A DNA stretch of 64,000 nt, from NCBI GenBank assembly GCA_021371795.1, contig JAJFVK010000014.1, positions 1-64,000 of the forward strand, given 5' to 3'. The notes under the pieces were generated by a model, which was given only the letters and a program-made list of their open reading frames with translations, was not told the DNA's origin and ran no database searches. The translations under genes and the position numbers were made by a program. Positions 54,781 to 58,389 of the stretch are shown in pieces. The DNA comes from Planctomycetaceae bacterium (lineage in GTDB: Bacteria; Planctomycetota; Phycisphaerae; Sedimentisphaerales; UBA12454). How positions within the stretch are numbered: position 1 is the stretch's first letter; every line of letters starts with the position of its first letter.

Positions 54781-54853
54781 CTCCCTGTGCGGTTAGGATA
54801 GGGACCCAAAACACATAAGAAGTGCGTTTATGTTCAAGTGTAGCGGTATTCGC

Positions 54854-55147
54854 TTATTGCTCTACGATAAGTTCTTCGAGCAGTCTGTCGATAGTAGCAT
54901 CGAGTTTTTCATCGATTTGATATTCACCCATACTGATTTGTCTGCGGACGGTCGTTATTTTCTCGTATCTTACTTCCGGCAGTTGGGCGATTTTATCCAA
55001 AAGCTGCGAAAGCGGTTTTTTGGCCGCCGACTGCAGCATTTCTTCTGTTCTTATATCATCTGTGGGATTTAACTCTTCGCACTCATTCAAATTGAGCCTG
55101 CGATTAGAAGCCATGGTGTTATGTAATTGTGTTTTAAATTGTTTCAT
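54854..55147 (-). CDS. Second FlgM-like anti-sigma-28 factor
   Basis: A 97-residue protein if the ATG at 55147 is used; a TTG at 55213 would add 22 residues. The C-terminal part (YEKITTVRRQISMGEYQID followed by a helix) is a closer fit to the FlgM pattern than the gene at 14067. The N-terminal part is polar and probably disordered. A TAAAGTTT element upstream resembles the -35 of FliA promoters. It is far from the flagellar block, which is unusual. Confidence 0.65.
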   Translation of the reverse strand: MKQFKTQLHNTMASNRRLNLNECEELNPTDDIRTEEMLQSAAKKPLSQLLDKIAQLPEVRYEKITTVRRQISMGEYQIDEKLDATIDRLLEELIVEQ

Positions 55148-55301
55148 TTCCGCTAAAACCTTTCTCGAATACAATTTAGCCCGAGAATAATCCGTTTTTT
55201 CAGCTAAATCCAAAGGCTCAAAGCATTTCGGCTTTTACGAGCCCCTATATGTTGTGTCCCGTTAATCCATTACGGCTTTAAATTTATTACTTACAATACT
55301 G

Positions 55302-55330
55302 ATATCGTCTGTATGAAAATCAAAACTTTA
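55302..55330 (-). promoter_or_regulatory. Sigma-28-like promoter of second FlgM gene
   Basis: Reading on the minus strand, TAAAGTTT (55330-55323) is followed after 13 bp by GACGATAT (55309-55302). The -35 is an exact consensus match and the -10 shares CGATA, but the spacer is 2 bp longer than usual. Confidence 0.5.
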
Positions 55331-55717
55331 AAAAAGTTTTAACTTTTTTATATATATTTAAATGTTGCGTTTTTGCATAAAAACTGTGTTTTTAGCCCTG
55401 TTACTGCATATTATCAAGGCTGTTTATTTTAATTTAAGCTACGATGTAATTGATAATTTGGCGAATTTGATGGGATACAACATATTGTGTGTCGAGGTCC
55501 TAAAACAAGCATAAATTGTTTCGTTGATGGAGAATTGGTTTACATAAAATGGAAAAAGTAAATTTTTAAATGTGGTTGTGCGGTTCGTAAACTTCTTCAA
55601 CAGCTTTGCTTAACAGTTATGAACGAGATGAAAATTATTAAGAATCCGGATTAATATAGCTTGACAAACTAATTTTTGCGATTACTTTTATACATCTCAA
55701 TTAGATGAGCAATTTAC
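55331..55717. other. AT-rich gene-free stretch before tRNA-Asp
   Basis: No coding frame or clear repeat is seen. The stretch is AT-rich and probably holds the promoter of tRNA-Asp. Confidence 0.4.
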
Positions 55718-55791
55718 GGGGCCGTAGCTCAATTGGCTAGAGCATCGGACTGTCGATCCGAAGGTTGAGGGTTCGAACCCCTTCGGCCTCG
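55718..55791 (+). tRNA. tRNA-Asp (GTC)
   Basis: A 74-nt cloverleaf: acceptor GGGGCCG/CGGCCTC (one G-T pair), D-arm AGCTCAATTGGCTAGAGC, anticodon loop CTGTCGA (GTC), and T-arm GGTTCGAACCC. CCA is not encoded. Confidence 0.95.
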
Positions 55792-55798
55792 TTAATGT

Positions 55799-55836
55799 AA
55801 AACCTTGCAGGTAAATAACTTGCAAGGTTTTTTTTG
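55799..55836 (+). terminator. Terminator after tRNA-Asp
   Basis: AACCTTGCA (55801-55809) and TGCAAGGTT (55821-55829) form a 9-bp stem followed by eight or more T residues. Confidence 0.88.
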
Positions 55837-55852
55837 TTTCACTAAAAATATC

Positions 55853-56196
55853 AAAAAAAGCAAGTGCACCAAAATGCACTAAAAAGAATTGGATCAGGTC
55901 TGTGAAAATTAGAGCTGGAGAGGTGGTGAGAAGGTCTAAATTTGAGAATTGATCCAAAAGTGTTAAAATCTTATCTATTTAATAGATTGATAATTTTTCT
56001 TAAAACCCCGTATTTACCACAGTTGAAATGGGTAAGTAATTAGGTTATAATTGGCCGTCGATAGCTTGGGTTAGTCCTTTTGTTAAGGACGGGGCGGATT
56101 TGGAAGAAAGCGAGAAAACGAGCCATTTCTTTTTTCCTCTATTATTAGCTCCTTAAAGTGAATTTGTAATTATTTATTTTTTTGGAGGACGAGAAA
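55853..56196 (+). repeat. Conserved PEP-CTERM gene leader, copy 1
   Basis: About 340 bp nearly identical in large parts to copy 2 (56952-57307). It contains, in order: AGCAAGTGCACC, an inverted repeat TTGGATCA/TGATCCAA (55889-55896, 55950-55957), two AGGTCT words, TTACC/GGTAA arms flanking the -35 box, a sigma-70 promoter, a GTCCTT/AAGGAC hairpin (56074-56090) and a ribosome-binding site. Each copy sits before a PEP-CTERM gene. Confidence 0.8.
56023..56051 (+). promoter_or_regulatory. Sigma-70 promoter of first PEP-CTERM gene
   Basis: TTGAAA (56023-56028), a 17-bp spacer and TATAAT (56046-56051). It is repeated exactly in copy 2. TTACC and GGTAA arms on either side of the -35 could be an operator. 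Confidence 0.72.
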
Positions 56197-56892
56197 ATGA
56201 AGAAAACGGTCATAGTTTGCGCAATTGTTATGCTTGTGATTGGTCTGTCAGCCAATACAAATGCTGCGTATGTAGAAACATTCGACAGTAGTAACGCCGG
56301 TTGGTTGTGGATGAACCAGAGCTATGTTCAAACGGCTACCACCTATAACAGCACCGGAGGTAATACTGATGGGTACATAAGTTGCATTGCTACCACTTTG
56401 TCGCGTGTTGTTGGCATTAATCCTACTAATATTGTTGGTGGGGTTGGAACCGGACAAACGACTTGGACGGATCTAACTGACAGTACATTGACTGTGGATT
56501 TTAAAGTTAGCGGCACTGCTACGGCTCAGGATGGCGGTACCCCAATGGTAAGGTTCTACGTCGCCAGCGGCGGCACATACTATATCGCTAAGGAGGCCTA
56601 CAGCTGGAATCCAAACAGCGACATAAGTTGGACAACACATCAGATAGCTTTGTTGGCGGAAAATTTTGTATGTGAGTTAGGAAGCAAATCCTTTGCAGAT
56701 GTAATCGCTAATGCAGACGATATAGGCCTGCAGTGCGGCCCCAGTGATGGCGCAACTTATGTAGACGTTCCTGGAATCGGCTTTGCCGGCGATGCAACGC
56801 TTATGTTTGATAACTTCGGTACAATTCCAGAACCAGCAACAATAAGTATTCTTGCAATAGGTGCATTGGGTCTGATTCGCAGAAAAAAATAG
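56197..56892 (+). CDS. PEP-CTERM sorted surface protein A
   Basis: A 231-residue exported protein. The signal peptide (about 1-22) is followed by a Thr/Ser/Gly-rich beta region that looks like a secreted binding domain, and the C terminus is a PEP-CTERM tag (PEPATISILAIGALGLIRRKK at the very end, proline motif then membrane span then basic tail). Such tags are cut by exosortase after export. The start at 56197 has GGAGG upstream; a TTG at 56182 lies inside that site. No exosortase gene is in the window. The ligand is unknown. Confidence 0.85.
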   Translation: MKKTVIVCAIVMLVIGLSANTNAAYVETFDSSNAGWLWMNQSYVQTATTYNSTGGNTDGYISCIATTLSRVVGINPTNIVGGVGTGQTTWTDLTDSTLTVDFKVSGTATAQDGGTPMVRFYVASGGTYYIAKEAYSWNPNSDISWTTHQIALLAENFVCELGSKSFADVIANADDIGLQCGPSDGATYVDVPGIGFAGDATLMFDNFGTIPEPATISILAIGALGLIRRKK

Positions 56893-56918
56893 AATCATCA
56901 AAAATTAATGAATTTAAA

Positions 56919-56947
56919 ACGGCAGGATTATTCTTGCCGTTTTTTTT
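56919..56947 (+). terminator. Terminator of first PEP-CTERM gene
   Basis: ACGGCAGG (56919-56926) and CTTGCCGT (56933-56940) form an 8-bp stem with one G-T pair, followed by T residues. The same hairpin ends the second PEP-CTERM gene. Confidence 0.88.
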
Positions 56948-56951
56948 GTGA

Positions 56952-57307
56952 ATAAAAAAGCAAGTGCACCAAAATACACCAAAAGGAAGAAGGTCAGGTC
57001 TGTGAAAATTAAGAAAAATTCGAGTGAGAGAAGGTCTAAAATTGAGTATTGATCTAACTTTCAAATCTACCTACTTAATAGATTGAGAAGATTTTTCTTG
57101 AAACCCGTATTTACCACAGTTGAAATGGGTAAGTAATTAGGCTATAATTAACTATCGTAGTTTGGGTTAGTCCTTTTGTTAGGGACGGAGCGGAAGATTT
57201 GGAAGAAGGCGAGAAAACGAGCCATTTCTTTTTTCCTATCTATTATTTAGCTCCTTAAAGTAAATTTGTAATTATTTATTATTTTATTTTTTGGAAGGAA
57301 AGAGAAA
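56952..57307 (+). repeat. Conserved PEP-CTERM gene leader, copy 2
   Basis: Second copy of the leader described at 55853. The dyad arms change together in part (AGGTCA at 56991-56996, TGATCT at 57050-57055), and the transcribed hairpin keeps pairing (GTCCTT at 57170-57175, AGGGAC at 57181-57186). The promoter box is unchanged. Confidence 0.8.
57120..57148 (+). promoter_or_regulatory. Sigma-70 promoter of second PEP-CTERM gene
   Basis: TTGAAA (57120-57125), a 17-bp spacer and TATAAT (57143-57148), the same as copy 1 except for one spacer base. Confidence 0.72.
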
Positions 57308-57946
57308 ATGAAAAAGTTAGTAGCAATTTGTGCGGTATTAGTCACAGTCACCGCCAGTCTTATGGCTGCACCAGTTACCGGCACCTATGATTCCCGCACA
57401 GAGGGTTCAACGATTATTGCGAATGTTCCTTATGTGGAAGGTGCAACTGTTTCATCATTTTGGGAAGATGTCACAGGAGATGTCGGAATGTTCGATGCTT
57501 GGGGGTACTCTGGCGATACTCAGTGGTATATTGAAGCACATGACCCTGCTTGGGAAGACGGAATCTATTGTGGCTTTATTCAGCTCAACAGCTTCGGTAA
57601 CGCCCCGTGGTTCGGAGACAATCCAACAGAGGTCGGCGGCTACGAAGGGCTGATTACAGAGTGGACACTGGAGGAAACTTACACAGGGGAAGTTCTTGAC
57701 CTTGTACTAAGAGGCACTGCTGTCCTGGACAAAAAACACATGATGCCTTGGTACCCAATCACAATGGATAAGTTCGTGGACATGTCGCCAGTGTCAATCA
57801 GTTTTGAAATGGGGTTTAATGGCGTATCTGATGAAGGTTATATCGGCGGTACTCCTGATTATCTTGTCGTTACAGTCATTCCTGAACCAGCAACAATAAG
57901 TATTCTTGCAATAGGTGCATTAGGTCTGATTCGCAGAAAAAAATAG
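57308..57946 (+). CDS. PEP-CTERM sorted surface protein B
   Basis: A 212-residue exported protein with a signal peptide (about 1-20), a beta-rich and Trp-rich body, and the same PEP-CTERM tag as protein A. The bodies of A and B are unrelated to the eye; only signal layout, tag, terminator and leader match. A GGAAGG site precedes the ATG. Exosortase processing to the outer surface is inferred. Confidence 0.83.
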   Translation: MKKLVAICAVLVTVTASLMAAPVTGTYDSRTEGSTIIANVPYVEGATVSSFWEDVTGDVGMFDAWGYSGDTQWYIEAHDPAWEDGIYCGFIQLNSFGNAPWFGDNPTEVGGYEGLITEWTLEETYTGEVLDLVLRGTAVLDKKHMMPWYPITMDKFVDMSPVSISFEMGFNGVSDEGYIGGTPDYLVVTVIPEPATISILAIGALGLIRRKK

Positions 57947-57972
57947 AATCATCAAAAATTAATGAATTTAAA

Positions 57973-58000
57973 ACGGCAGGATTATTCTTGCCGTTTTTTT
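57973..58000 (+). terminator. Terminator of second PEP-CTERM gene
   Basis: ACGGCAGG (57973-57980) and CTTGCCGT (57987-57994) with a T-run, the same hairpin as at 56919. Confidence 0.88.
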
Positions 58001-58177
58001 GTGAATAAAAAAGCAAATATGTACCGGTTCAGTTTGAAATGGACAAATCCATTTTACAGTTAAGTGACTGCTTTGCTTTGGTATCCAGTAGTGCTCCAGT
58101 GAGTCTCTTATCATCACCACCACCACTACTATATATTGGAATTGGTGGAGTCAAGTAAATACCCACTTCTTAGAAAT

Positions 58178-58389
58178 GAGGGGTGCATCAAGATTTTTCG
58201 GCACTTCTTCATTTATCGTAACAAAAACAAACGTTATTTGTTCTTCAAAAATGCGGTTTTATATAAGTTTATGTCAGTGGTTACTATGCTATCAGCCATT
58301 GCAAAGTAAGATGACCATTCTTAACTGACGTTTGCTATTAAAGTTAAGCGTGGGAGTACAACGTGCCACTATTTTTTGATGCACCCCTC
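58178..58389. mobile_element. MITE-like element, 212 bp
   Basis: Perfect 14-bp terminal inverted repeats, GAGGGGTGCATCAA (58178-58191) and TTGATGCACCCCTC (58376-58389), bound an AT-rich, non-coding 212-bp segment. The size and ends fit a miniature inverted-repeat element moved by a transposase encoded elsewhere. No target duplication is obvious. The family is not assigned. Confidence 0.7.

Follow-up and report, generated by a model that had tools for sequence, protein, structure and literature searches.

Tandem PEP-CTERM genes of a planctomycete with common ends and unlike bodies: evidence for a probable exchange of bodies within a conserved shell

Two adjacent PEP-CTERM genes of a Planctomycetaceae bacterium carry nearly the same sequence at both ends around bodies that appear unrelated. 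They lie in a stretch of 64,000 nt (assembly GCA_021371795.1, contig JAJFVK010000014.1, positions 1 to 64,000; hereafter the window, to which coordinates without a contig name refer). The explanation preferred here, with a probability of roughly 0.77, is that a conserved shell holds exchangeable bodies, that the locus was duplicated and its 3' ends later converted, and that the bodies are turned over during evolution. The sequence comparisons indicate that the bodies were exchanged by recombination over evolutionary time and not by rapid on/off switching.

The source genome (G000) is a draft of 2.85 Mb in 28 contigs, and was examined through searches and selected stretches. Planctomycetes bacterium GWF2_42_9 (G001), which the grouping of the search tool places in the same genus, was treated as the sister species. 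G002 is of the same genus as the source, G007 of another genus and G021 of a different family within the same order; all genomes compared were draft or metagenome-assembled.

The pair lies on the plus strand, immediately 3' of a tRNA-Asp(gtc) gene (55717-55792, plus strand). Unit 1 (55854-56953), delimited by direct repeats and junctions, consists of promoter and 5' leader (leader A, 55853-56196), gene A (56197-56892; 231 aa, with a putative signal peptide to about 56265 and the body at 56266-56823), the sorting tag (IPEPATISILAIGALGLIRRKK, 56824-56889) and an intrinsic terminator (56916-56943). Unit 2 (56954-58016), delimited in the same way, repeats this order with leader B (56954-57307), gene B (57308-57946; 212 aa), a tag of the same 22 aa (57878-57943) and a copy of the terminator (57970-57997). 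A FlgM-like anti-sigma gene (54857-55213, minus strand; Pfam FlgM, E = 1e-7), conserved in G001, marks the left edge of synteny; the other neighbours of the pair are PTS EIIA, Ser/Thr kinase, phosphoesterase, glycosyltransferase and GGDEF genes. Just 3' of unit 2, two 27-nt inverted repeats (58178-58204 and 58363-58389, 78% identity) surround about 160 nt; they resemble the remnant of a small insertion element, with no second copy in the sequence examined.

Searches of the source genome aligned the leaders over their full length at 83% identity (55853-56200 and 56954-57311; E = 5.5e-95), and the tag, terminator and tail at 98% (56820-56965 and 57878-58016; E = 3.8e-63). The longest exact matches are 78 nt, across tag and terminator, and 38 nt, in the promoter. 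When all gene pairs were compared, the A/B leaders scored 1e-84, against 0-1 pair at E < 1e-3 with shuffled leaders. The bodies of A and B gave no BLASTP match outside tag and signal peptide, and a comparison of their profiles returned a probability of 0.2%; Hhalign gave less than 1% for A/B and for either of them with gene C, the G001 gene at the same locus. AlphaFold2 models of A and B from single sequences reached a pLDDT of 32-34, and no solved relative was found. The first-pass annotation had described common upstream sequence, tags and terminators around bodies without visible similarity, and these comparisons bear it out. It had also placed the start of a next leader behind both terminators; behind terminator B there are only 10-16 nt (GTGAATAAAAAAGCAA), which are the end of the duplication, and no third leader.

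The junctions show that the unit was duplicated in tandem at a 10-nt repeat, in the source lineage. The repeat, AAAAAAGCAA, occurs at 55854, 56954 (to 56963) and 58007 (to 58016), and the unit edges read ...ATATCAAAAAAAGCAAGTGCACC at the start, ...GTGAATAAAAAAGCAAGTGCACC in the middle and ...GTGAATAAAAAAGCAAATATGTACC at the end. The middle junction, GTGAAT-AAAAAAGCAA-GTGCACC, joins the left side of the end to the right side of the start, and recombination of this kind across AAAAAAGCAA is what a tandem duplication between two short repeats leaves behind, the site at 58007 being the micro-repeat where the duplication arose. The duplication half of the earlier idea is thereby upheld. The homologous coding sequence of simple tandem duplicates is absent, since only the tag and the signal region match and the homologues of A and B form separate families.

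The two ends differ in age. With G001 gene C as the third sequence, sites in tag and terminator group A with B in 33 cases and either copy with C in 3 cases each, as against 46 for A with B and 29 and 24 for the other groupings in the leaders (Fisher p = 4e-5). By this count the 3' ends are younger than the leaders, in agreement with the homogenised ends of the first-pass annotation, and with a divergence of 2% against 17% they were probably made alike again by later gene conversion between the copies.

Homology between the source and G001 extends over window positions 54853-56204 (75.6% at the DNA level) and stops at the start of gene A. The G001 locus has the same FlgM-like gene, the tRNA-Asp at identical spacing, a leader 76% identical to leader A and 72% to leader B, and one PEP-CTERM gene (C), which has a third body and whose terminator is a homologue (72%) of terminators A and B. 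No homologue of body C turned up in 59 related genomes, and outside signal and tag it did not align significantly to body B. It follows that at this locus the shell is ancestral, whereas at least some of the bodies are not.

Bodies A and B each have homologues elsewhere. A homologue of body A (57% identity) is present in G002, where it adjoins a clpB-like gene under an unrelated leader; homology at the DNA level begins in the signal cleavage region (56268), includes the tag and ends at 56919. Body B is 64% identical to a G021 protein with a different leader and a different tag, and there the DNA homology is restricted to 57375-57839. The leader and signal of gene B match gene C as far as about 57387, and its tag matches that of gene A from 57878. 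These limits define gene B as a mosaic whose breakpoints lie close to the signal cleavage site and immediately ahead of the tag; for gene A, the general likeness of the tags (about 70% among all of them) prevents an exact placement. The closest donor bodies, at 57-64% amino acid identity, are not near enough to show recent transfer. Since divergence in place cannot yield bodies from two pre-existing families, we infer recombination.

A third, diverged cassette was found at C12:15232 of the source genome. A hidden Markov model (HMM) of the A, B and C leaders matched it at E = 6e-8, the next match in 528 kb of other sequence being at 0.06. The three terminators, modelled in a separate HMM, led to the same gene, again at 6e-8. 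Since the locus had been picked for its tag and for a weak similarity of its terminator, the leader match is the independent part of the result. The cassette (locus L141, C12:13700-16000, 439-1700) lies directly 3' of a tRNA-Val gene and carries a fourth body, of the family of C21:40420 and C21:105379, both of which stand under other leaders. The terminator of this cassette resembles that of the G001 gene (86% over 76 nt) more closely than it does terminators A and B. Searches with the leader and with tag and terminator found no further close copies in the source genome; the copies there are the full-length pair and this diverged relative. On an evolutionary time scale, the proposed replacement or swap of the gene centre is supported by the third body in G001, the homologues of A and B under other leaders and the fourth body in the distant shell.

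Other PEP-CTERM genes have common ends as well. On C21, five tandem genes (98124-101886, minus strand) have mutually unrelated bodies and are about 70-84% alike in tag, terminator, signal region and intergenic DNA. The same block is present in G007 (C175; 78% over 162 nt), around bodies unlike those on C21. For genome-wide counts, 62 PEP-CTERM genes were parsed and one run-on duplicate was dropped, leaving 61; the tags of upstream neighbours were stripped before leaders were compared, many apparent shared leaders being such tags. Pairs of genes shared leaders in 6 cases (0-1 after shuffling), downstream sequence in 8 and bodies in 11, with an overlap of 0 between leader and body sharing and of 1 between downstream and body sharing. 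For 96 genes from the family and order, the region of ribosome-binding site (RBS) and signal was shared by 128 pairs, bodies by 29 and both by 2, a count that is supportive only, because RBS and signal are partly under functional constraint and the outside loci were picked by similar tags or bodies. One pair of the source genome (C3:4714/6058) has the form of a normal duplication, with bodies 85% identical, an RBS and signal region at 71% and leaders that are not alike, the reverse of A and B.

These observations are brought together in the following history. The shell, made up of promoter, leader and signal peptide in front and of sorting tag and terminator behind, would enclose an exchangeable body. 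One ancestral gene would have stood 3' of the tRNA-Asp in the common ancestor with G001; its tandem duplication at the 10-nt repeat, in the source lineage, is shown by the junctions. Before or after this event, the bodies would have been replaced by unrelated PEP-CTERM bodies through ordinary recombination, with one exchange point at or close to the cleavage site of the signal peptide and another immediately ahead of the tag, as the homology limits suggest. The two 3' ends would have been made alike again afterwards, probably by gene conversion. Exchange of this kind would represent turnover of the repertoire on an evolutionary scale and not a programmed switch. A stronger form, in which conserved ends, some of them behind tRNA genes, serve as landing sites and exchange is frequent enough to vary the surface between strains of one population, is considered unlikely.

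One alternative is a plain tandem duplication after which the bodies diverged rapidly in place, while promoter, tag and terminator were held by function. The tandem duplication is certain, and fast evolution has been described for PEP-CTERM proteins (Haft et al., 2006; PMC1569441). Homologues under other leaders can, however, be recognised for body A as well as for body B, which makes the two distinct families and not drifting copies. The Hhalign values also tell against it, and the whole-gene duplicates on C3 kept their bodies and lost the likeness of their leaders; divergence in place is accordingly regarded as improbable. Phase or antigenic variation, suggested in the first-pass annotation, would mean that programmed or frequent recombination between homogenised ends swaps or deletes the expressed body within a population. 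The identical repeats of 78 and 38 nt that flank the bodies would in principle suffice for RecA-dependent loss of one of them, the 3' ends are younger than the leaders, and the bodies differ between two species at the orthologous locus. Each copy, however, has a complete promoter, start, stop and terminator; nearby, silent or promoterless copies were not found, the flanks contain no recombinase, and there are neither inverted repeats around the bodies nor an invertible promoter or segment. With only two close copies in the genome and leaders that have diverged by 17%, the suggested role found no backing and is judged very improbable.

A mobile cassette that inserts behind tRNA genes with the bodies as cargo would account for the position of both shell loci of the source genome, behind tRNA-Asp and tRNA-Val, the only tRNA genes directly 5' of PEP-CTERM genes in the stretches scanned, and the tRNA-Asp flank is variable within the genus. 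At the tRNA-Asp locus, however, neither an integrase nor a direct repeat of the tRNA end was seen; leader DNA had no match in phages and protein B none in plasmids or viral contigs; there are two such loci only, and the G001 copy is simply orthologous. We give this reading very little credence. An error of assembly, with reads of two loci joined at the repeated tag and terminator, might arise in a draft of 28 contigs, where short reads might be misassembled across a repeat of about 137 nt at 98% identity. There are several differences between the copies, each flank is unique and the left one is syntenic with G001, and tandem PEP-CTERM genes with common ends also occur on C21 and in G007, which together make such an error extremely unlikely.

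The flank 3' of the tRNA-Asp (55717-55792; loci L085, L088 and L095) differs strongly between species of the family, and in some of them contains stretches that read like tyrosine-integrase genes. This flank is likely an insertion hot spot.

In both leaders the end of a motif, CCGTATTTACCACAGTTG, overlaps the -35 hexamer TTGAAA, which is followed by a 17-nt spacer and the -10 hexamer TATAAT (56008-56051 in leader A and 57105-57148 in leader B, plus strand; the TATAAT is at 56046 and 57143). In the form CCGTAKTTACCACRNTTG (56008-56025 and 57105-57122) the motif occurs about once per genome in 9 of the 59 genomes, and the reversed control gave 0. Further sites are at C1:31566 of the source genome and at loci L063-L071; in related genomes the promoters near it belong to genes for regulators (FixJ type and solitary LuxR type), for a beta-helix protein and for a small Cys-rich protein. 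It resembles, in sequence only, an operator of the FixJ/NarL type, the FixJ consensus from SELEX being GTAGTTTCCC (PMC4999443). Related genomes have the motif 5' of FixJ- and LuxR-type regulator genes. A and B are its only PEP-CTERM carriers among the 62 genes of the source genome, and a role as regulon mark of all PEP-CTERM genes was rejected. The leaders had no credible match in Rfam; RNAalifold of the three leaders produced a GTCC-GGAC hairpin without useful covariation. From about +40 to +230 past the motif, a stretch whose reading frame is not conserved is itself conserved in G003, at C1:31566 of the source genome and in G002 (L069, L070 and L071). It contains a GCCGGTGCCG...GGTACG block and a terminator-like end, and is possibly a small RNA driven by the same promoter motif.

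Membership of A and B in the PEP-CTERM class was supported by PF07589 (21.3 and 21.6 bits; cut-off 20.7) and TIGR02595 (18.3 and 19.9 bits; cut-off 16). The translated N-termini, read by eye, have a K-rich start, a hydrophobic stretch and an AxA-like site. The source genome has a single match to the exosortase family PF09721 (C7:4795-5580; E = 2.4e-54). Both genes look intact and, each with its own promoter and intrinsic terminator, seem to be transcribed separately; as predicted from these features, their products should be exported and, after recognition by the one exosortase, reach the cell surface or matrix. Elsewhere in the source genome, one open frame (C13:270618-271322) contains two PEP-CTERM tags, the first internal and the other behind a second domain, and is perhaps a fusion of two neighbouring genes.

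Exchange of bodies would offer a concrete route for renewing the repertoire in a cell with dozens of exosortase-sorted proteins, in which the signals for regulation, export and anchoring stay and the exposed body is replaced. One prediction is that, for these genes, orthology of loci and orthology of proteins disagree, and such a mismatch may explain many PEP-CTERM genes that look species-specific. Searches of open-access papers on PEP-CTERM with phase variation, tandem duplication or recombination gave no title or abstract on body exchange. As far as those titles and abstracts go, exchange at the level of the locus within a conserved shell is new, but as a variant within a kind of protein family already known.

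In the sap system of Campylobacter fetus and the vmp system of relapsing-fever Borrelia, conserved ends enclose very different bodies, which can be exchanged by recombination through the ends; these systems rely on silent copies and one expression site, and their switching has been measured. The A/B pair would resemble them in its conserved ends around unlike bodies, and differs in that both genes have a promoter and that no silent archive was found. The SitA lipoprotein toxins of myxobacteria (PMC8546572) are described as modular polymorphic proteins in which a conserved delivery part is joined to variable parts. That arrangement appears similar, whereas at the present locus no toxin or immunity gene was seen and conservation spans both ends together with regulatory DNA. 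The nearest system is that of PEP-CTERM and exosortase (EpsH) itself, with which the pair has in common a signal-like N-terminus, a short C-terminal PEP tag and one exosortase, as well as many paralogues with unlike bodies and long non-coding upstream regions. Haft et al. (PMC1569441) described PEP-CTERM as a modular tail on fast-evolving sets of proteins, noted their rapid turnover and reported long non-coding upstream regions that in Proteobacteria have a shared sigma-54 site (PrsR). Here, in contrast to that site, the entire shell of promoter, leader and signal in front and tag and terminator behind is common, with a sigma-70-like promoter, and the shell is kept at an orthologous locus while the body changes.
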